From a bacterium (GTDB lineage: Bacteria > Bacillota_I > Bacilli_A > RF39 > UBA660), in assembly GCA_030531905.1 (NCBI GenBank), contig JAUNMG010000005.1:1-34217 (forward strand): 34,217 bases of DNA, in the 5' to 3' direction. A model generated the notes under the pieces. That model saw only the letters and a program-made list of their open reading frames with translations, was not told where the DNA came from and ran no database searches. Of this stretch, positions 6,752-34,217 are shown one piece after another. The position numbers and the translations under genes were made by a program. Each line of letters opens with the position of its first letter. Positions within the stretch are counted from its first letter, which is position 1.

Positions 6752-7949
6752 AAAAATTTGATATTTTACTATTCATTACATTTTTATATTTTTCAACACC
6801 TGGTTGATTAAATGGATCTACATCAAATAAATAGGCTGAAAACGCAGAAGCCATCATAAAAAACATTGTTAACTGGCCAATACTTTCTAAAGAAATAATT
6901 CCCATATCAATTATATTATTAGGAACACCTCCATCATAATGAGCCTCAACAACAGAATTTAAAACAATATCATTGTACTCATTTAATGATTTATCTTCCA
7001 TCATAACATCAGTTTGATACTTAGCTTTTATCACAGTTTCGTAAATTAGTTTCCTTCCTTCTTGAATAAATTGGCCTAGTGAATGCAAATCCCTAGTATT
7101 AACAGTTGATACCGGAAATATTCCTTTGCCATCCTTTCCTTCACTTTCTCCAAATAATTGTTTTAGAAATTCAGTATAGTAATAAAGACTTTCATGGTAA
7201 ACACTAAAATTCTCTAGTAAAAATCCTAATTTGTACATAACATTTCTAATACAGGCATAATTGTAAGCTTCATCTAAATATTTTTTGCCTCCATAATAAC
7301 CTTTCAAAAACTTATCAATATCAAGATTCATAACAGCAAGTACTAGTAAATGAGCAGGTGTTATAATACTATATCTACCACCAATATCTGAAGGCATATC
7401 AAAAGTCATAAATCCATACTTTGACGCCTCATCTTTTAAATAGCCACTTAATTGATTAGTCGTAACAATAATTCTTTCTTTAAGTTCAGATAAATCATAT
7501 TTTTCTTTTAGTATATTTAAAATATAATTGTAAGTTAGTTTAATTTCAAGAGTCGTTCCAGATTTAGAAATAACATTAACATAAACACTTTTATCTTTAA
7601 TATAATTAACGACTTCACTTAATTTTTTAGCTGACAAATTATTACCAATATAGATAACTTCAACATCATCTTTAACAAATTCATTTGTAAAAATTTTTGC
7701 GATTGAATAGCTTCCCATATAGGAACCACCAATTCCTATTACAAGTAAAACATCAGCATTTTCTCTTATCATCTGGCTAACTTTCTTTATTTTTTTTAAA
7801 GTGGTATCATCAACACTTTTTTGATACCACCCTGTCATACTATCATTAGTAAAATGTTCTAAAATAGAATTTTTTTTCTTTAAAAGATCATCATATAATT
7901 TATCATCTAGAAAAGAAGACATGTAAGTTTTAAAATCAAATTTCAACAT
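6750..7949 (-). CDS. pgi: Glucose-6-phosphate isomerase
   Basis: 399 residues; interconverts glucose 6-phosphate and fructose 6-phosphate in the cytoplasm. Family blocks are clear: VIGIGGSYMGS in the phosphosugar-binding loop, ISKSGTTLE, DIGGRYS, QLFGESEGK with the catalytic-base glutamate, STVNTRDLHSLGQF with the conserved histidine, and NQPGVEKYK near the end with the conserved lysine. It is about 50 residues shorter than Bacillus enzymes, mostly through shorter N- and C-terminal segments; the core looks intact. The start codon shares one base with the stop of the giant glucan synthase gene (TAATG), with GGAGG about 10 bases upstream, so the two genes are translationally linked. Confidence 0.95.
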   Translation of the reverse strand: MLKFDFKTYMSSFLDDKLYDDLLKKKNSILEHFTNDSMTGWYQKSVDDTTLKKIKKVSQMIRENADVLLVIGIGGSYMGSYSIAKIFTNEFVKDDVEVIYIGNNLSAKKLSEVVNYIKDKSVYVNVISKSGTTLEIKLTYNYILNILKEKYDLSELKERIIVTTNQLSGYLKDEASKYGFMTFDMPSDIGGRYSIITPAHLLVLAVMNLDIDKFLKGYYGGKKYLDEAYNYACIRNVMYKLGFLLENFSVYHESLYYYTEFLKQLFGESEGKDGKGIFPVSTVNTRDLHSLGQFIQEGRKLIYETVIKAKYQTDVMMEDKSLNEYNDIVLNSVVEAHYDGGVPNNIIDMGIISLESIGQLTMFFMMASAFSAYLFDVDPFNQPGVEKYKNVMNSKISNF

Positions 7950-10900
7950 TATTTGTTTTTCCTCCTATAAACATAAACATCAAACACGCCTTTTGATTCT
8001 AACTTAATTTCTTTAACAGTTTTACCATTTAAAACTATTTCATTTTTAGAGTCAAATATCACTTTAATGTTATATGTTGCATCCATATACTTATAATTTA
8101 TTTCATAATTTCCAATACTAGAAGATATTTTTTCATCTAATTTCAAAATAGAACCATGTCGTTTAAATCCTAAAATCTCTTCAATTCCAACTCGATAATA
8201 CCATGCTGCTGAACCTGTATACCAAGTCCATCCACCTCTAGCTTTAAAGTATGAAGATGAATAAATATCTGCCGCAACTACATATGGTTCAACCTTATAT
8301 ATATCAGCAATATCTTTATTCAAACTTCTATTAACAGGATTAATCATTTGATAATAATCATAGGCTCTTGATTTATAACCTGCCTTAATTAAAGCCATGA
8401 TATACCATGAAGTTGCATGAGTATATTGCCCACCATTTTCACGAATTCCTTTTGGATAGCTTTTAATATACCCTGGATTATTAAGTGATTTATCAAAAGC
8501 AGGATCTAATAATTTTATTATTTTAGCATCTTTATCAACTAAATTTTTTTCAACAGAATCTATAATCATATCATATTTATCTTTATCTGCCACTCCACTT
8601 AATATTGAAAAAGCTTGTGAAATCAAATCAATCTTACACTCTTTATTTTTGTAACTTCCTAGTTTATCGCCATTATCAAAATAGGCTCTTAAATAGTAAT
8701 CCTTATCAAAACCATTTGTATTTAGGTTTTTCTTTAATTCTTTATTAAATTCTTCATATTTTAAAGTATCTATTTCTAAATCTTTACTGTAGTTTATGAT
8801 AACTTTAGTAAATTTATCTATTATTTCATATAAGAAGAAACCTAACCAAACACTCTCACCTTTACCTTTAATTCCAACCTTATTCATACCATCATTCCAG
8901 TCACCACCACCCATTAAAGGTAGACCGTGTATTCCAATTTGACTCATAGAATAGTTGATTGCTAAAAGACAATGATTAAATAATGTATCTTCTTTTTCAG
9001 TATAATTAAAACTAATACCACGTTCAGCTTCATGTTGAGTTAATTCCTCACCATAAATATATGGAACCATTTCATCTAGAATACTGTAATCTTCTGTTAC
9101 ATCTAAATAGTGAATAGTTGCATAAACTAACCATAAATAATCATCTTTATATCTACTTCTTAAACCAAAACGATTAGCTTCATGCCACCAATGAAGAACA
9201 TCTCCTTGTTCAAATTGATGAGAAGCATTAATGAGAATTTGAGTTTTTGTAAATTCAGGATTAACAATACAAATATTCATCGCATCTTGTAACTGGTCTC
9301 TATAACCAAAGGCTCCACTTACCTGATAAAAACCAGCACGTGCCATAATTCTTGATGATAAAGCTTGATATAAGTACCATCCATTTAACATATAGTCAAG
9401 ACTCGGATTAGATGTTTTTACTTGAATATTGCCAAGTAATCTATCCCATTTTTTCTTCACCATATCAAGTTCAATTAAACAGTTATCGACTATACTATAA
9501 TGGTAAATTAAATCTTGAAATTTTCTTTCATTTCTTGCACATCCTAAAGTAAATACAACCATCTTTTCACTGTTAGGTTTGATTTCAATAGAGTTAGTTA
9601 TACTTTTTACTAGAATACGATTATCTTCACAAGAGATAATCTTTTCAGATGATGACATAAAAACATCAACATCGCTAAAATTAATACTATAAACATTTCT
9701 AAGTTTTAAATAATTATTATCTGAAAATAACTCAGATAAAATATGTCTACTAGTTTTCTCTTCAAAATTTCCCAAAGTTGGATTCATATAATAAGTAAGA
9801 TCAATTTTTGCTTTTTCACTTGTTTTATTTGTTAATGAGACTAAATAAATCTTAACACTGTCACTTCTTGCGACAAATTCAGTAACTTTTGTTTTCAAAC
9901 TGTCTGTTTCAGATTCTAAAATACTATAACCAAAACCATGAGTACAAATTTCTGGATCAAAGATTTCATCATTAATAATAAATCCTTCTGATTTATCATT
10001 TAAAATCATTTCGTTAGTCCAAGATGTTATCTTATACTCTCCACTATTATATGAATAAGTATAACCACATCCATTATTAGTTACAATAGTACCAAAATTA
10101 TTATTAGAAATTACGTTAGACCAAGGAGTTGGTGTATTTTTATTATAAATTACATATTCACGGCCATCATTTTTAAAACCTCCGTAAGAATTGTCATAAG
10201 AAAGATTCAAAGGAGAAACTTGCTTTATATTGTTTTGATATGGCAATACCTTAGAAACACTTACCTTATTATTTCGTTGAAGATTATCTACCATATCTTT
10301 TAAAGATTCATTACCATTAACATCAAAATAAAGTCTAGGAACAGTTTTTAATAAGGTTAATTCTTCTCTTGTAACATCTTTTAAATCAATAATAGTAACA
10401 GTTCCGGGAGTATGATAAAAACTATTTAAGGTATAAATATGATATAATTCCTCTTCTATTTTTTGTCTAATAAGTTTAGCTGATTTATATTCTTCACTAT
10501 TTAGAATAATAATATCAACGAATATAGATTTGTTTTTAAAATATTCAAAAGCCTTTAGTAACTCCATAACAAATGATAAGTTATTAATGCTTTTAATATT
10601 TACCAAAATAATTGGCCTATCACCACTAACTCCAAATTTCCATAAACTACTTTGAGACAAAGCATTTTCTCTTAAAATATCTTTTCTTGAAGAAGAAACA
10701 GAAATCCTAGTTGTTTGATATAGATAATTTAGCATTGTATTAAATATGCGCATATCTTCCCCACTTAGATTAGAAACTTTGGTATTAATTATGTTTGATA
10801 CACTTGCTACTTTGAAGGCATTTTCAATACTCATCTTATCATTATATGAAGAAATAATATCATTTAATTGTTCCATACTTCTACCAAATCCACTGATAAA

Positions 10901-13900
10901 ATATACTTCTTTTTGGCTATTAGGTTCTATACAAATAGAATTTCTTAAAGCCATCACAGGTTCAATATTAGCACCAACATGATTAGTTAATTTAGTATCT
11001 AATGCCTTAGGATTTTGATATGAATAACCTCTACCAACAAAGTTAAATCTATCTGTTTCATAGCTATATTCATCTAAAGGATTATCAATTATAAGTCTAT
11101 TTAACATATAACTAGTAGCGCCTTCATCTCTACTAACTCTTTTAGTAACTAAAGAATTAGAATCACTAAGATATTTAGACTCTAAAAACATACTATTAAA
11201 AACACGATGAGCAACATCTTGAGGATTTTCTGATAAAATTGGCTCAGTATATGAAGTTAGTTCTAATCTTTTAGGTTTATCAGAATTATTAATAAATGTA
11301 AGCTTTCTTATTTCAGCATTATGGGAAGATGTAACAACAATCTCTGTCTTTGTTGTTATTGGACCATCTTTTCTAATATATTTAATTTTATCTGATGCAA
11401 AAACAACTTCATAATAATCTGACTTTTTATTTAGAGGTGCAAAATTATTAGACCAGATTTTCTTAGTATCTAAATCTTTTATATAGAAAAACATACCATA
11501 ATCTTGTTCCGTAATTTTTCGATATCTGTTTAATTGTAAGGTACGATATCTTGAAAAACTATCTCCTCTATCATTCATAAGTAGACAGTACTTTTTATTT
11601 GATAAAACACTAACTTCAGGCATATCAGAAATATATGAAAAACTTCTAATATCATTTTCGATTACTTCTTTTTCATAATTGTACTTTTTATATTTTGAAA
11701 TTTTCATATCTATATCTGCTTTTACTTGAACTTTTTCTTTTAATAAGATTTCAAAGGTTTTAACAAAAACATTTTCATGAAAATATTCTTTCATAACATC
11801 ATTTTTTAAATAATTAGTAATTCCCATTAAATTCATACCTTGATGATGAGCATAACAAGCCCTTACGATTCCTTCATTTGATAAATCATATGATTCATAG
11901 AAACCATATTTTGAAAGCATACCTAACTTTTTGAACTTTAATGTATTATTATATATTTCTTTTGGATATAATTCTAACTCCATCAAAGTTGAATATGGAG
12001 AAATTACTATTCTTTCATTTAATTCCTCTCTAGATTTTAAATATGGAACTGAAAAACTATGATATTTATAATTTAGGGAATTATCAAGTTCATTATAGGC
12101 TGATTCACTAATTCCAAAAGGAAGATTTTTATCAACAGATTCCATATATTCTTTTTGACAGATATAAGCAAATGAATATGATTCATCTAGTAATGTATTA
12201 GGGTAATTTTTCATAAATAAGAAAGGCATATAATATTCAAATGCTGTTCCAGACCATGAAATAAGTCCTTTGTGATTTTTATATGTAGTTAATGATTTAT
12301 CTAGACAAAACCAATGTTTACTTGGAATATCACCTTTAGCGATTGCTATAAAGCTAGTAAGACGTGATTCTGATGCAAATTTGTTGTAATTGTATGGTGA
12401 CATGTGATTTTCAGAAACATCATAACCTATACTTAATACTGATGTTTTAGTATAAAGTTTTCTAAAGTTGGTATTTTTAATTAACCTCTCGATTTTTTCT
12501 TTTAAAGCCTCATGAGTACCATCACTTACAAATGTTAAGGCTACAATCAAAGAAGCGACAAAATTACCAGAATCTATTGTAGAGATAAATTTTGGATTTA
12601 AAACTTCCATGGTTTTAGTGTCATACCAGTTATATAAATGTCCATGCCACTTTTCTAACTTAGACACTGACTCTATTATTTTTTCTAGATAGTCTATGGC
12701 CTCATCCTTAGAAATAAAATCTAAATTATATGCAGAAATAATACTAGTAATTGAAAATGCAATATCTGTAGGAGATGTTCTAAAATCAAGTTTTTCATCT
12801 CTGTTTTCTTGATAATTATCAGGTATTAAATAATTATATTCTTCACGTAAATTTTCTTTAAAATAGTCCCATGTTTTTAAAGCTATATCTTCAATAACAG
12901 CATCTTCTTTAGAATTTAATTTTTTTTCTTTTTTCAAATCTTTACTAATTAAATAAGTAACAAAAGGAGCTGATATAAAAATTAAACCAACAACAAACAT
13001 TGATATATTTTTTGTAAATATTGATATTATCAAAAGAATTAAACCAGTTATTAAGTTAACACTAAAATTAAAACAGTAGGTTTTCAAATCAAATTTAGCT
13101 GTTTTCGCAACTTCTTCAGCTGTAATCCAATTAAGTAAATTTTTATGGGAAATCTTCATTCTATAAATAGATCTTATAAAAGCATCTAAATATAATTTTG
13201 TGTAATAAGGTATAGTTGCAAAGACAACATATGCTCGTAATAGAATAGCTTTGCCACCAAACATTAGATTCTTATAATAGACTGTTTTAAACTTATTATC
13301 TTTTAAATATAATTTACTCTTCAAAAATGAAACAATAGAAAAAGCTATTATAAGTAAAACATAAATAAACCAAACAAGTTTATTCTTACAAATAGTAATA
13401 TTAAGAAGAACTATTATAAATAAAGTCAAAGATAAAAACATTCTTACAATATTATCAAAAATCTTAAATCTTTCTAAAAGATTAGTAGGATTAACTTCTT
13501 TTTTTCCTTTATAATTTTTCACCTTAGGAAACATATAATCAAGAATTTGAACATCTCCTCTAGCCCATCTATGTTGTCTAGATGTATCTACTAAAAACTT
13601 TGATGGAAAATCATCAATAAATTCTATATCAGAAACATAAGCACAGCGTAAATAACTACCCTCAAGTAAATCATGTGACAAAATTAAATTATCTGGAAAT
13701 CTTTCATACAAAAGTTTATCAAAAACATCTAAATCATAAATTCCTTTACCTACAAAACTTCCCTCTTTAAATAAATCTTGATAAATATTTGGAATAGATG
13801 ATGTATAAGTATCAAATCCCCCAATTCCCGCAAAAATTTGTGAATATAGTGATCTATTAGTTGATTCTATATCAGTAGAAATACGAGGTTGCATAAGAGC

Positions 13901-15601
13901 ATGGCCTTTAACTACCTTTGTTTCTTCTTTGTTAAGAATTGGTTTATTTAAAGGATGTGCCATACAACCAACTAAATTAAGAATAGAATTTAAGACTGGC
14001 TCTGTATCAGTATCTAAAGTTATTACATATTTTATTTTTAATGATGCATTTTCTAAAGTATTGACATTAAAATACTTTTTTAAATCTTTTTTGGAAAGTT
14101 TATTTAACAAGATTCTATTAAATTGAAGAATAGCTCCTCTTTTTCTTTCATAACCTAAGTAGCCATTCTCACTTTCATTATAAACTCTTTTGCGATAAAC
14201 AAAATAGAATAAGTCTTTTTTATATTTCTTATTTAATTTAGAAGCATATTCTAATCCAAAAGCAGAAATTTCTTTATCATAGTCTTCAACTTTTTTTGAA
14301 CTTTTCTTAACATCTCCTAATAAAGTAAAATATAAATTATCACTTTTGTTTATCAAATAAAAAGTTTCTAATTTATCAAACATTTCTTTAATTTTAGTTG
14401 TATCAGAAATAATGGTTGGTATTACAATCATTGTTGAATCTTCTTCAGGTATTCCCTTTAGATAATTTAATTTATAGGAAGGTTCTGTCCCTACAAATTT
14501 TTCTAAAATCAAGTTAACTATTTGAAGTACTAATTGACTAGTAGGAATAATTAATATCAAAAAACCTATAATTATATTTGGAATAAAAATCATTGATAAT
14601 AAAAAACTAGAAATAATACTAAAGATAGTTACAAAGAAAATATATAAAATCATTCTTAAGGTAGTGTCTTTTTCTTTAAATAAGGAAAAACCTATATGAT
14701 AATTATTATTATCAGAGTTATCAGAATATAATTTAGAAACATATTCATACTCAGTCACTTTATTTTTCTTAGATAGTTTTACTATTTTACTTCGATACAT
14801 ATTCTTGGTTTCAAAAGCCATTTTAAAATAAGTTTTATCTTCAAGTAATACTTTTTCACATTTACTAACGCTTGAATAGATACTTTCCAAATCATACAAT
14901 CTAATATTTTTAATACCTGTAAATAAATTAGAAATTAAAACTGTATCATCTATTTTTGACTGATATACACTATTTAAAATATCTTTAAGACTTACATTTT
15001 TTTCTTCTAGTTTCTCATTAAAATTTTTAAAGAATTTTCTTGCTTTAGTACCTAATTCTTTCAACTGATTATTAATTTCAAAAGTGTAATAATGATCTCT
15101 TACAGGATCAAATTGTTTTGATATAAAATCATCTATACTAATTTCTTCTTTATCAGAAAGTGTTAAGATATTTTTTGCTACTGAATCTTTAATTAAAAAC
15201 TGATTATAATTTTTCTTACAAAGTTCGCTTAATCTTGCATTATATATACCTATTAAAATTATTTTTGTCATTGATAATTCTTGATAAGAAAAATAATATT
15301 TATTTTTTCTTTGATATGAATTTAATTCTTTTACAAATAATTTGTAATTAATATTGTAATTATTTCTTATAACAATTTCATTTATAGCTTTATAGATTTC
15401 TTTTGATTTTTTTAATGTTTTAGAAAGAGATTTATTACCAATGATATCATTTTTATATTCAACTACTAAATAAAAATTATCTATTAACCATTCATTAACA
15501 ATTCCAACATTATTATGTTGTTTTACCTTTTCAACTAAAAATTTGTAATATTTAGAAATTATTTCATAATCTTTAATAAATTTATTTAGTAATCTAGTCA
15601 T
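7949..15601 (-). CDS. Cyclic beta-1,2-glucan synthase-like protein (GT84, GH189-like and GH94-like domains)
   Basis: 2550 residues in a single uninterrupted frame. In order: an N-terminal region of about 310 residues; membrane segments near 317-358; a GT84-type glycosyltransferase core (about 380-690) with DTDTE at 530-534, HDLLEGSYLR near 643 and QHRWARGD at 676-683; further membrane segments near 720-760 and 846-888; a glycoamylase-like (GH189) region at about 940-1290 with SWSGTAFEYYMP near 1115 and AHHQGM at 1251; beta-sandwich regions; and a GH94 phosphorylase-like part (about 1800-2500) with YRDQ at 2101, DWNDGMN at 2234-2240, RENGGQYTHA near 2387 and GWTWYTGSAAWYYR near 2457. In known synthases GT84 polymerises UDP-glucose, GH189 cyclises and GH94 trims chain length. 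Key motifs are kept, so activity is plausible. GGGAG precedes the ATG. Confidence 0.9.
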   Translation of the reverse strand: MTRLLNKFIKDYEIISKYYKFLVEKVKQHNNVGIVNEWLIDNFYLVVEYKNDIIGNKSLSKTLKKSKEIYKAINEIVIRNNYNINYKLFVKELNSYQRKNKYYFSYQELSMTKIILIGIYNARLSELCKKNYNQFLIKDSVAKNILTLSDKEEISIDDFISKQFDPVRDHYYTFEINNQLKELGTKARKFFKNFNEKLEEKNVSLKDILNSVYQSKIDDTVLISNLFTGIKNIRLYDLESIYSSVSKCEKVLLEDKTYFKMAFETKNMYRSKIVKLSKKNKVTEYEYVSKLYSDNSDNNNYHIGFSLFKEKDTTLRMILYIFFVTIFSIISSFLLSMIFIPNIIIGFLILIIPTSQLVLQIVNLILEKFVGTEPSYKLNYLKGIPEEDSTMIVIPTIISDTTKIKEMFDKLETFYLINKSDNLYFTLLGDVKKSSKKVEDYDKEISAFGLEYASKLNKKYKKDLFYFVYRKRVYNESENGYLGYERKRGAILQFNRILLNKLSKKDLKKYFNVNTLENASLKIKYVITLDTDTEPVLNSILNLVGCMAHPLNKPILNKEETKVVKGHALMQPRISTDIESTNRSLYSQIFAGIGGFDTYTSSIPNIYQDLFKEGSFVGKGIYDLDVFDKLLYERFPDNLILSHDLLEGSYLRCAYVSDIEFIDDFPSKFLVDTSRQHRWARGDVQILDYMFPKVKNYKGKKEVNPTNLLERFKIFDNIVRMFLSLTLFIIVLLNITICKNKLVWFIYVLLIIAFSIVSFLKSKLYLKDNKFKTVYYKNLMFGGKAILLRAYVVFATIPYYTKLYLDAFIRSIYRMKISHKNLLNWITAEEVAKTAKFDLKTYCFNFSVNLITGLILLIISIFTKNISMFVVGLIFISAPFVTYLISKDLKKEKKLNSKEDAVIEDIALKTWDYFKENLREEYNYLIPDNYQENRDEKLDFRTSPTDIAFSITSIISAYNLDFISKDEAIDYLEKIIESVSKLEKWHGHLYNWYDTKTMEVLNPKFISTIDSGNFVASLIVALTFVSDGTHEALKEKIERLIKNTNFRKLYTKTSVLSIGYDVSENHMSPYNYNKFASESRLTSFIAIAKGDIPSKHWFCLDKSLTTYKNHKGLISWSGTAFEYYMPFLFMKNYPNTLLDESYSFAYICQKEYMESVDKNLPFGISESAYNELDNSLNYKYHSFSVPYLKSREELNERIVISPYSTLMELELYPKEIYNNTLKFKKLGMLSKYGFYESYDLSNEGIVRACYAHHQGMNLMGITNYLKNDVMKEYFHENVFVKTFEILLKEKVQVKADIDMKISKYKKYNYEKEVIENDIRSFSYISDMPEVSVLSNKKYCLLMNDRGDSFSRYRTLQLNRYRKITEQDYGMFFYIKDLDTKKIWSNNFAPLNKKSDYYEVVFASDKIKYIRKDGPITTKTEIVVTSSHNAEIRKLTFINNSDKPKRLELTSYTEPILSENPQDVAHRVFNSMFLESKYLSDSNSLVTKRVSRDEGATSYMLNRLIIDNPLDEYSYETDRFNFVGRGYSYQNPKALDTKLTNHVGANIEPVMALRNSICIEPNSQKEVYFISGFGRSMEQLNDIISSYNDKMSIENAFKVASVSNIINTKVSNLSGEDMRIFNTMLNYLYQTTRISVSSSRKDILRENALSQSSLWKFGVSGDRPIILVNIKSINNLSFVMELLKAFEYFKNKSIFVDIIILNSEEYKSAKLIRQKIEEELYHIYTLNSFYHTPGTVTIIDLKDVTREELTLLKTVPRLYFDVNGNESLKDMVDNLQRNNKVSVSKVLPYQNNIKQVSPLNLSYDNSYGGFKNDGREYVIYNKNTPTPWSNVISNNNFGTIVTNNGCGYTYSYNSGEYKITSWTNEMILNDKSEGFIINDEIFDPEICTHGFGYSILESETDSLKTKVTEFVARSDSVKIYLVSLTNKTSEKAKIDLTYYMNPTLGNFEEKTSRHILSELFSDNNYLKLRNVYSINFSDVDVFMSSSEKIISCEDNRILVKSITNSIEIKPNSEKMVVFTLGCARNERKFQDLIYHYSIVDNCLIELDMVKKKWDRLLGNIQVKTSNPSLDYMLNGWYLYQALSSRIMARAGFYQVSGAFGYRDQLQDAMNICIVNPEFTKTQILINASHQFEQGDVLHWWHEANRFGLRSRYKDDYLWLVYATIHYLDVTEDYSILDEMVPYIYGEELTQHEAERGISFNYTEKEDTLFNHCLLAINYSMSQIGIHGLPLMGGGDWNDGMNKVGIKGKGESVWLGFFLYEIIDKFTKVIINYSKDLEIDTLKYEEFNKELKKNLNTNGFDKDYYLRAYFDNGDKLGSYKNKECKIDLISQAFSILSGVADKDKYDMIIDSVEKNLVDKDAKIIKLLDPAFDKSLNNPGYIKSYPKGIRENGGQYTHATSWYIMALIKAGYKSRAYDYYQMINPVNRSLNKDIADIYKVEPYVVAADIYSSSYFKARGGWTWYTGSAAWYYRVGIEEILGFKRHGSILKLDEKISSSIGNYEINYKYMDATYNIKVIFDSKNEIVLNGKTVKEIKLESKGVFDVYVYRRKNK

Positions 15602-30385: not shown

Positions 30386-30401
30386 CAAATTGGTGAAGAT
30401 A

Positions 30402-31079
30402 ATGAAAGATTTTTATAAAAAACATATTAATTTATTAAAGGGAATATTTAGTTTTATTTTGTTTTTTTCAAGTTCCTATATTAGTCAATTATTAATAATT
30501 ATTTTAAATTTTAAAAAATTAACTGTAAAAGATGCCGTAATAATTAATTTCTTATCAAGTTTAATTATTGCCTTGATTTTGATATTAATATATAGAAAAG
30601 ACTTAGTAAAAGAATTTAAAATATATAAAAGAAATTTATCAACAAATGTTGATATTGGGATAAAATATTGGTTAATTGGACTTGGCTTTATGATGGTATC
30701 AAATATCATTATAAATATTTTATTTAAAGCTGGACAAGCTACCAATGAACAAGCTGTTCAAAAAATGATTTCTGCAATGCCTTATCTATTATTAATAAGT
30801 GCTGGAATCCTTGCACCTATAAATGAAGAGATTCTTTTTAGAAAAGTATTTAAAGATAACATAAAAAATAAAGTTATTTGTATTTTAGTATCAGGAATTC
30901 TTTTTGGTTATATGCATGTTATTTCTGCTACTACAATTTCCCAATTTTTGTATATAATTCCTTATTCTAGTTTAGGTATTGCTTTTGCAATAATGTATTC
31001 TAAAACTGATACAGTATTTACATCTATGTCCATGCATATGTTTCATAATATAATACTTACTATATTATCAATTATTTAA
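30402..31079 (+). CDS. CPBP-family intramembrane metalloprotease
   Basis: 225 residues with about six to seven membrane segments. Signature motifs are complete: EE-x3-R (Glu142, Glu143, Arg147 in NEEILFRKVF), F-x3-H (FGYMH, His172) and H-x3-N (HMFHN, His212 and Asn216), the residues of the membrane-embedded active site of the Rce1/Abi-type family. Bacterial members are linked to bacteriocin self-immunity and signalling, but the substrate here is unknown and no bacteriocin gene is adjacent. The ATG at 30402 is preceded by the leader TTGGTGAAGATA; the in-frame TTG at 30390 and GTG at 30393 are that leader. A strong terminator follows. Confidence 0.9.
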   Translation: MKDFYKKHINLLKGIFSFILFFSSSYISQLLIIILNFKKLTVKDAVIINFLSSLIIALILILIYRKDLVKEFKIYKRNLSTNVDIGIKYWLIGLGFMMVSNIIINILFKAGQATNEQAVQKMISAMPYLLLISAGILAPINEEILFRKVFKDNIKNKVICILVSGILFGYMHVISATTISQFLYIIPYSSLGIAFAIMYSKTDTVFTSMSMHMFHNIILTILSII

Positions 31080-31788: not shown

Positions 31789-32397
31789 CTACTTTTGTAA
31801 AATAGCTTTTTCTAAATCTTCAATATTTGAAACACCACTAATTATAAAATCCACTTGATTATCAGAAATAGTGATTTTTTTTCTTTCTTTTATTTGATAG
31901 TAAACATCTTTTGGAAATGAGCTAAGATATTCAATGTTGTCTCCAATAACACCTTCATAAACATGATTGTAATCCATTTTAATATTACTAATATTTTTTA
32001 TGTTTGTTTCATCATCACTATTAATTTTTACTATATATATCCTGTATCCACTTCCAACTTTATCTTTTAGTTTTTCATAGTCTTCACAACTATTAAGACA
32101 TTGATCCAGTATAAATGATACATTTTCTTTAATTAAATAATTAATTCTTTCATCTTGAATTTGTCTAACATTTTTATCTATTTCTATCCTTTTTTCATCA
32201 CTATAATCTTTTGTAAACTGATAATAATAATTTCTAATATAATCATTGCTTAACAAATAGATTTTTAAATCTTTTGACAAATTTCTAGCAATCGTTGTTT
32301 TTAAAGATCCCGGTAATGCTACAAAAGTCACCACAAATGGTTTATCGTATTTTACTACATTTTCTAAATTTATTTCACTAATAAAATCTTTATCCAT
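31789..32397 (-). CDS. P-loop kinase-like protein (AAA_33/zeta-toxin type) with altered Walker A
   Basis: 202 residues, cytoplasmic. The fold resembles small P-loop kinases: a beta strand FVVTFVALPG, then the loop PGSLKTT at residues 29-35, helix IARNLSKDL, IYLLSNDYIR as the substrate-side segment, and a Walker-B-like strand VSFILDQCLN. In the usual PGSGKTT the glycine before the lysine is replaced by Leu32, which may weaken nucleotide binding. Relatives phosphorylate small molecules or nucleotide sugars (zeta-type toxins); none of that is shown here. GGAG lies 7 bases before the ATG at 32397; an ATG at 32415 reads through the ribosome site. It lies between two mobile-element remnants and may be acquired DNA. 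Confidence 0.7.
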   Translation of the reverse strand: MDKDFISEINLENVVKYDKPFVVTFVALPGSLKTTIARNLSKDLKIYLLSNDYIRNYYYQFTKDYSDEKRIEIDKNVRQIQDERINYLIKENVSFILDQCLNSCEDYEKLKDKVGSGYRIYIVKINSDDETNIKNISNIKMDYNHVYEGVIGDNIEYLSSFPKDVYYQIKERKKITISDNQVDFIISGVSNIEDLEKAILQK

Positions 32398-32462
32398 ATT
32401 AATTCTCCTCTTCATATATTATTATTTCACACTTACTTTTATTATATCTTATTCTCTTAATT

Positions 32463-32631: not shown

Positions 32632-33270
32632 TTAAATATTTACTCCTCTTTCTATTTTTCTATCACAGTAAATCAATCCAATAGAAATAATAAATTGAAT
32701 TATAAATGAGATTGTTAGTTGCATCCATAAACTATTTGATAAAACCATTTCATGGAAGAATAACAAATATAGAAAAGAATTAAGAAAACAAATAAACACA
32801 TAATTTAAACCTATCATGATACTTTTAGATGTCATATTAAATATTACATAATAATAGATTAATAAATTAACAAATAAGCTACCAAAATATGTAACTGTTA
32901 ATCCAAACATCTCAAAAATGCTTGCCTCACGATTTGTTAAATTATATATTAGTAATAAAAATGCAATAATTATTAGTGAAGAAACACAAATTGAAAATAA
33001 TGAATTTTTAAAACCAAATTTTTTAGTAATATAGTTACTTATAAAAATAATAAATGGTACTACAAATAATGAAAATGGTAAATTATTACCAAGCACCGTA
33101 AATTGATAAGATTTTAATGATACTGCTAAAATACAAATAACAGATAATAATATTGAAAACATAAATACATCATTATTGTATTTTTCTATATCTATTCTAC
33201 TCTTTACATTCTTTTTCTTTTTTCTATTATTAGTCTTATTTGATGATTTTTTAACTTGACTTGTAGCCAT
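32632..33270 (-). CDS. VUT-like (queuosine precursor transporter type) membrane protein
   Basis: 212 residues. A Lys/Asn-rich cytoplasmic N-terminus (about 1-27) is followed by six hydrophobic segments. The segment LPFSLFVVPFIIFISNYITKKFGFK matches the position and character of the VUT/YhhQ family block in which a Pro and an acidic residue precede a short basic Gly-aromatic turn, but the usual aspartate (SD-x-x-TE) is here Asn and Lys (SNYITKK), so the match is weak. If correct it would import a queuosine precursor; otherwise it is an unassigned transporter. The ATG at 33270 has AAGGAG 8 bases upstream; a GTG at 33279 overlaps that site. Confidence 0.5.
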   Translation of the reverse strand: MATSQVKKSSNKTNNRKKKKNVKSRIDIEKYNNDVFMFSILLSVICILAVSLKSYQFTVLGNNLPFSLFVVPFIIFISNYITKKFGFKNSLFSICVSSLIIIAFLLLIYNLTNREASIFEMFGLTVTYFGSLFVNLLIYYYVIFNMTSKSIMIGLNYVFICFLNSFLYLLFFHEMVLSNSLWMQLTISFIIQFIISIGLIYCDRKIERGVNI

Positions 33271-33301
33271 AAATTTCACTCCTTATTTTTCTTATACACT
33301 A

Positions 33302-33372: not shown

Positions 33373-34217
33373 ATGGTAACAAGACAAGAAAAAAATAAAG
33401 ATATTCAAAATGAAATAGAAGAAGAAAAGTCTCGTGAAAAAAGAAAGAAAATAGTAAAATTACTCTTCAAGATAACAATTATAATTATAATCTTCTTTTT
33501 CTCATTATACTTTTATGCTAAATATTCTACTACTCTAGGATTAATTGTAAAAGAAGTAAGAATTACTAATCAAAAAATACCTGATTCATTTAATGGAAAA
33601 AAAATAATTCACTTTACAGATATTAATTATGGTAATAATATTTATCAAGAAGAATTAGATAACTTAGTCAATACTATTAACGCAAGAAAACCTGATATTG
33701 TAATTTTCACTGGTAATCTAATTGATAAAAATTATAAATTAAGTATAAAAGAACAAGAAAAAATAATTAACTCATTAAAAAAAATTGATACTTCTACTGG
33801 TAAATATGCTGTGTATGGAAAAGATGATAATGAAAAATTATTTTCTACTATAATGAATCAAAGTGATTTTATTATTTTAGATAACACATATGATTTAATC
33901 TATAATGATAACACTCCTATTTTACTAGTAGGACTTTCTAGTTATGTTAATAATAAAAGAAATATAGATGAAGCCTTTAAATATTTTAAAGAAGAAACAC
34001 ATAATTCTAATATTTATACAATTTCAATAATGAGTGAAACTGAAGATTTAGATGATGTTATTACTAATTATAACCCCGATTTAGTATTGGCTGGAAATTC
34101 ATTAAATGGGGAGATAGTAATACCTGGTATTGGTGGACTTATTAAGCAAGAAGGTTCTAGTAAATATATAAATCCCCACTATAAGAAAAATGGTACTGAT
34201 ATTTATATTTCTGGAGG
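33373..34217 (+). CDS. Metallophosphoesterase-fold protein lacking metal ligands (partial, runs off the window)
   Basis: 281 residues are visible. A charged N-terminus (about 1-28, Lys/Glu-rich) and one membrane anchor (about 29-46) precede a YkuE/YaeI-like phosphoesterase domain that would lie outside the membrane. Every signature block can be located but is altered: IHFTDINYG where D-x-H is expected (Asp83 kept, Asn85 for His); FTGNLID for TGDLID (Asn115 for Asp); VYGKDDNE for GNHD; AGNSLNGEIVIPGIGGL for the GHTHGGQ-containing block (both His lost). The frame is intact and the flanking family residues are conserved. This looks like a pseudoenzyme rather than a decaying gene. The family's usual role is phosphodiester or pyrophosphate-bond hydrolysis; here that is unlikely. 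Confidence 0.85.
   Translation, partial: MVTRQEKNKDIQNEIEEEKSREKRKKIVKLLFKITIIIIIFFFSLYFYAKYSTTLGLIVKEVRITNQKIPDSFNGKKIIHFTDINYGNNIYQEELDNLVNTINARKPDIVIFTGNLIDKNYKLSIKEQEKIINSLKKIDTSTGKYAVYGKDDNEKLFSTIMNQSDFIILDNTYDLIYNDNTPILLVGLSSYVNNKRNIDEAFKYFKEETHNSNIYTISIMSETEDLDDVITNYNPDLVLAGNSLNGEIVIPGIGGLIKQEGSSKYINPHYKKNGTDIYISG

Follow-up and report, generated by a model that had tools for sequence, protein, structure and literature searches.

The gene at positions 33373–34217 of the window, by which we mean the whole 34,217-nucleotide stretch of DNA that was analysed, is probably a conserved, membrane-anchored pseudoenzyme of the YkuE/YaeI (COG1408-type) metallophosphoesterase (MPE) family, with a non-catalytic binding role. 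Judging from the residues present, metal binding and catalysis have very likely been lost. A binding or regulatory role is the weaker part of this reading, and one towards which we lean, and the partner that we name speculatively, an intramembrane protease whose gene lies immediately upstream in many relatives, is a doubtful candidate. The fold and the surroundings of the site would have been kept while the two-metal centre was removed; the protein would very probably hydrolyse no phosphoesters, and the gene would owe its retention to the binding of something at the membrane by the folded domain. In short, the protein probably does a job that needs its shape, not its chemistry. Set against its homologues, it is the extreme of a repeated, ordered loss, although nearly all genomes of the family have held on to the gene itself.

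Gene structure and family assignment

Positions 33373–34215 on the forward strand translate into 281 residues, uninterrupted by a stop codon. The window makes up the first half of a 68-kb contig, from an assembly of 1.36 Mb in 66 contigs, and 10 N begin directly past its last base (C57:34218-34227; L045:1219-1228), inside the MPE gene. The gene and its N-terminal features are as follows.

33373–34217, forward strand: putative pseudo-metallophosphoesterase gene; 281 codons inside the window, the last ~25 codons beyond it, across the 10-N assembly gap
33373–33450, forward strand: charged N-terminal tail of ~26 residues, MVTRQEKNKDIQNEIEEEKSREKRKK, read from the sequence
33460–33522, forward strand: predicted single membrane helix, residues ~30–50, from a hydrophobic stretch (helix 4–55 in the structure model; topology deduced)

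A TGA lies a few bases past the gap, and is in the frame of the open reading frame if the gap is truly 10 bases. It is followed by an otherwise normal C-terminal block, SKTIGFRIFNNPSINFYRLTNKK-stop, which matches the orthologues. The lengths of 10-N gaps are usually nominal and contig edges are error-prone, so that the last ~25 codons of the window copy may or may not be intact. At the other end, the start of the tail, M-x-[ST]-R-x-EKN, is common to the genus and resembles tails in related clades. An interaction motif of the GpsB or MacP type was considered for the tail and rejected, the match to MacP being insignificant (E 0.022). Basic residues ahead of the membrane helix suggest that the MPE domain lies outside the cell.

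The sequence identifies the encoded protein as a YkuE/YaeI-like (COG1408-type) MPE with one predicted membrane helix. It scored above the cut-off of the Pfam Metallophos model (PF00149; 24.0 versus 21.5 bits), which was also matched by 105 of 108 relatives. The best NCBIfam match was LpxG, at 60 bits far under the cut-off of 350, and the YaeI model gave 43 bits against a cut-off of 188, so that the protein qualifies as an equivalog of neither. By E-value, the top weak Pfam match was DNA_pol_E_B (23.7 bits; cut-off 29.1). Using the Bacillus velezensis YkuE, which was recognised from the neighbouring fadH and L,D-transpeptidase genes, all motifs were found in register at 25% identity. Collinearity with YkuE extends to the end of the window and, in the orthologue L006, through the C-terminal FR-x-PxI block. 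Misalignment of the motifs was ruled out by the alignments to YkuE and to intact relatives. A sequence search against solved structures returned no useful match for the single protein and, with a profile, only Mre11/SbcD. Two AlphaFold models, built from two sequences, had mean pLDDT values of 62 and 48; the first fell below 50 at several former active-site loops, and its top three Foldseek matches were MPEs, Mre11 and YmdB among them. This lends weak support to an MPE fold, the models being too weak for the pocket to be inspected.

Replacement of the metal site

The ligand assignment used here is the usual one for MPEs, as established, for example, in Mre11. By this assignment, one of seven conserved metal ligands is left in the window protein, the first Asp (D83), and the catalytic His has been lost as well. 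The former motifs, compared over the nine genomes of the genus (the window's included), read as follows.

33619–33627, forward strand: former D-x-H, now D83-I84-N85; Asp in 173/173 homologues, His position replaced
33709–33717, forward strand: former TGD, now T-G-N115; Asn in 9/9, bridging ligand lost
33817–33828, forward strand: former GNHD, now G-K150-D151-D152; 9/9 lack the catalytic His and retain the last Asp
34030–34047, forward strand: former HEPD block, now M-S221-E-T-E-D; Ser in 9/9, metal-2 His lost
34093–34110, forward strand: former GHSHNG/GHTHGG, now G-N242-S-L244-N-G; identical in 9/9, each metal site losing one His

The metal-1 His residues are thereby replaced by N/D/E/Y and by Leu, the bridging Asp by Asn, and the metal-2 ligands by Lys, Ser and Asn. 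Among the elements expected of a competent dinuclear MPE (DxH, GD, GNHD, His and GHxH), the first Asp ligand and the GNHD Asp remain. Position 85 is variable in the genus (N, D, E or Y, with Y in three members) and position 150 is K in 7/9, Q in 1/9 and V in 1/9, while N115, D152, S221, N242, S243, L244, N245 and G246 are invariant over 9/9 and D83 is kept.

These results bear on a first-pass annotation of the same DNA, which had described the YkuE/YaeI motifs as lying in register with nearly all metal ligands replaced. The alignment to B. velezensis YkuE confirms the register, and every substitution named (N85, N115, K150, S221, N242, L244) is present in the translation. That nearly all ligands are gone holds with the qualification that D83 is kept. 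Its remark that several replacements are Asn is partly accounted for by an AT-rich genome (26% GC; the window protein is 10% Asn), which does not explain the invariance of N115 and N242 over nine divergent genomes; for the Lys that it also listed, conservation is partial (7/9).

Conservation and selection in the genus

The gene is present in 9/9 genomes of the genus, always of the same type; the eight orthologues are 57–73% identical to the window protein and open through to a normal C-terminus. To compare sites, we took the 47 columns in which 64 intact homologues show at least 90% conservation. The genus retains 36 of the 38 ordinary conserved columns, compared with 2 of the 9 ligand/catalytic columns (Fisher p = 1.9e-5). 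As judged from this alignment, the substitutions are aimed at the metal site beyond chance, and the earlier observation that non-ligand residues around the motifs are kept is borne out.

By the Nei–Gojobori method, dN/dS ranged from 0.12 in the closest genus pair (dS 0.46) to 0.27 for most close pairs, with L010–L013 the single high pair at 0.42. Intact homologues gave mostly 0.10–0.25, some reaching 0.42, and the neighbouring genes dacA and glmS gave 0.19–0.22 and 0.23, respectively, all such values being rough since dS is near 1 in many pairs. Nothing here suggests relaxed selection in the genus, where a pseudogene was rejected on dN/dS and conservation. At the level of sequence, the gene combines the loss of catalytic residues with purifying selection, as expected of a pseudoenzyme.

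A whole-genome Pfam search of the window genome, estimated to be 92% complete, found no intact YkuE-like copy. It identified two other MPE genes, whose products of 466 aa and 172 aa (the latter YfcE-like) have canonical motifs but are of other MPE types; on this search, a takeover of the function by an active paralogue was rejected. One genome, G003, carries two copies (L010 and L061), of which one is the genus-type pseudoenzyme and the other a paralogue that is eroded in a different way and has a CPBP gene of its own beside it.

The proposal of the first-pass annotation that this is a pseudoenzyme has stood up well: the substitutions are fixed in 9/9, purifying selection resembles that on intact relatives and neighbouring genes, and the window genome has no intact YkuE-like paralogue. 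Orthologues with normal ligands together with relaxed selection on this copy, the outcome that it had said would speak against it, were not found among the genus genomes. The binding or scaffolding role that it suggested may reasonably be inferred.

Ordered loss across the wider family

Homologues were found in 136 of 145 sampled genomes of the same GTDB family; a profile search of the order was positive in 115 of 117 sampled genomes, all 117 belonging to that family. We aligned 173 distinct sequences, tabulated their ligands and built a tree from which the ligand columns were excluded. All seven ligand/catalytic residues scored as losable are retained in 75 of the 173 sequences, while D83 is kept in 173/173 and the GNHD Asp (D152) is D or E in 173/173. 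The absences are nested. Each of the 45 sequences without the DxH His also lacks the catalytic GNHD His (45/45); the DxH His is likewise missing from all 21 that lack the bridging Asp (21/21), and the bridging Asp from all 15 that lack the HEPD-block His (15/15). In 18 sequences the metal-1 His pair is gone although the metal-2 His residues and the bridging Asp are still there; one sequence shows the reverse.

Parsimony placed 17 losses of the DxH His on the first tree and 16 on a second, always where the catalytic His had already gone (17/17 and 16/16). The corresponding p-values for the order of the two losses, 8e-5 and 2e-4, assume that the events placed by parsimony are independent; regains, of which we are sceptical, are inferred as well when parsimony is unrestricted. 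Near-complete loss, defined by absence of the bridging Asp and the first GHxH His, has arisen ~10 times. The 173 homologues thus trace one nested path of loss, taken repeatedly, from the catalytic His through the metal-1 His pair to the metal-2 ligands. When the second GHxH His is lost it is replaced by L, I, M or V only (58/58), which looks like the filling of an emptied pocket.

Erosion is not confined to this family, since other families of the class also have intact and partly eroded members; one of these, L237, has independently been heavily eroded at the same site (its ligand string reads DFNSDHDSHL). In a sister clade (L051, L017, L018, L020, L023, L044 and others), GNHD has become GExD or GDxD and the ligand His residues are mostly kept. 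These proteins possibly retain metal binding, perhaps as altered enzymes.

In many independent lineages of the family, present-day members represent stages between a complete two-metal site and almost none, so that the sequence of steps by which a pseudoenzyme arises can be tested directly. The annotation "metallophosphoesterase" is probably functionally wrong for a share of the family's genomes, and the finding points to a non-catalytic membrane function that could not be guessed from the fold.

Neighbouring genes

Two genes upstream of the MPE gene bear on a possible partner.

30390–31079, forward strand: CPBP/Rce1-like intramembrane protease gene (PF02517, 60 bits), catalytic motif intact
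32632–33279, reverse strand: membrane protein gene without a Pfam match, separating the protease gene from the MPE gene together with other genes; shared with the genus

A CPBP protease gene lies directly upstream of the MPE gene and co-oriented with it in 50 of 114 loci. The loci counted include some genes represented twice, and many loci end before they could reach the CPBP gene. In the window and its genus the two genes are no longer adjacent and other genes intervene. Wherever readable (62 loci, repeats included, with one motif of L022 falling outside the alignment), the protease motifs EExxxR/K, FxxxH and HxxxHN are intact whatever the state of the MPE. The MPE site hence erodes where that of its neighbour does not, which argues against general operon decay. 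Were the protease the partner, the MPE domain would be a membrane-bound accessory or regulator of it. This pairing is speculative; the link is by neighbourhood only and the genes are non-adjacent in the window genus. Literature searches found no paper linking CPBP proteases to MPEs.

Also near the MPE gene are the wall-synthesis gene dacA and a Zeta-toxin/AAA_33-like kinase gene (31789–32415, reverse strand). Elsewhere in the window (7949–15601, reverse strand) is a gene for a 2550-aa protein with GH94 catalytic, supersandwich and glucoamylase-like domains, which resembles cyclic beta-1,2-glucan synthases and is very large for a 1.36-Mb genome.

Alternative explanations

With D83 and D152 retained, a residual or different metal site is conceivable. 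In one alternative reading, the site has been re-tooled: it would have given up its nitrogen ligands, acquired oxygen donors (D83, N/D/E85, N115, S221 and N242) and come to bind a hard metal, for instance Ca2+ or Mg2+, either in a structural role or to support a new reaction. The residues at 85, 115, 221 and 242 are indeed mostly oxygen donors, D83 is invariant, and Ca2+ would be available if the domain lies outside the cell; however, a Lys occupies the former metal-2 Asn position in 7/9 of the genus, and in eroded sequences elsewhere in the tree, and residue 85 varies, being Y in three members, which makes this reading quite improbable. In another, the protein is still an enzyme, working through D83, D152 and K150 by an unorthodox mechanism without the classical two metals. 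The universal conservation of D83 and of D/E at 152 would fit such a mechanism, and partly eroded relatives with only metal-2 ligands could be one-metal enzymes, but position 150 can also hold Q or V, and no residue was noted as a newly invariant nucleophile or base; we consider this reading very improbable. Less credible still is a gene decaying toward loss. The active site is gone and the window copy has a TGA past the assembly gap, yet the gene is kept in 9/9 genus genomes, with eight orthologues open to the end, dN/dS of 0.12–0.27 in most pairs, 36/38 other conserved columns retained, and near-universal presence in the sampled family (136/145) and order (115/117). These data contradict decay for the genus; decay of the window copy alone, at the level of its species, is possible.

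A different alternative accepts that catalysis is lost and holds that the ancestral class of substrate, for instance glycans linked to undecaprenyl pyrophosphate (UndPP) such as UpsH is thought to cleave, is still bound, the protein acting as a lipid-carrier sensor or sequestering factor. UpsH is itself anchored in the membrane and, as an MPE, frees the carrier lipid of wall polymers linked to UndPP (PMC11898649). Lys150 could hold phosphate in the metal's stead, N115, S221, N242 and L244, all at former ligand positions, do not vary in the genus, and dacA lies nearby. Against this, UpsH faces the cytoplasm and the domain of the window protein is apparently outside, and we regard the idea as unlikely. 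Similarly unlikely, in our estimate, is the reading of an envelope protein kept for a non-phosphoesterase job, its site dismantled repeatedly across the family along a fixed path, with Lys now and then in place of a metal, while domain, anchor and often the pairing with an intact protease were kept, and serving as partner or regulator of the protease or of carrier-lipid traffic; if true, it would reveal a non-catalytic partner or regulator of one or the other. The intramembrane protease and the carrier-lipid pathway are best taken as leads to binding, not as conclusions. The conserved membrane-anchored pseudoenzyme is our preferred reading throughout.

Comparison with known systems

Literature searches turned up no report of a bacterial MPE of the YkuE/YaeI type that is inactive. 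The window protein is collinear with Bacillus YkuE and E. coli YaeI over the whole domain, with the same motif order. It differs from YkuE in its replaced ligands and in having a long charged N-terminal tail and membrane helix in place of the YkuE N-terminus, whereas L034, an intact family member, shares 33% identity with YkuE and still has the ligands.

UpsH (YpbG) of B. subtilis is a COG1408 MPE with a single membrane segment; its H202A and H204A substitutions each abolish function, both His residues being described as metal-coordinating (PMC11898649). If spacing is a guide, these would be the GHxH pair, at which the window protein has N242 and L244 and so lacks both presumed essential His residues. 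The two also differ in orientation, UpsH facing the cytoplasm and the domain of the window protein apparently lying outside.

LpxG of Chlamydia is a membrane-anchored calcineurin-like phosphoesterase with DxH, GDxxDR, GNHD and GHxH motifs, and is active and Mn2+-dependent (PMC4807358). The window protein is likewise membrane-anchored by prediction, but without the ligands of those motifs. Mutating the first Asp of LpxG alone nearly abolished its activity (PMC4807358); this residue thus matters in an intact site, and its retention by itself is no sign of activity in the window protein.

A precedent for the proposed fate of the domain comes from the B subunits of eukaryotic replicative DNA polymerases (e.g., Dpb2), in which an inactivated calcineurin-like phosphoesterase domain serves as a structural or regulatory subunit (PMC7308368, PMC4996933). 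The setting is unrelated and the window protein has no OB domain, so the likeness is one of analogy.
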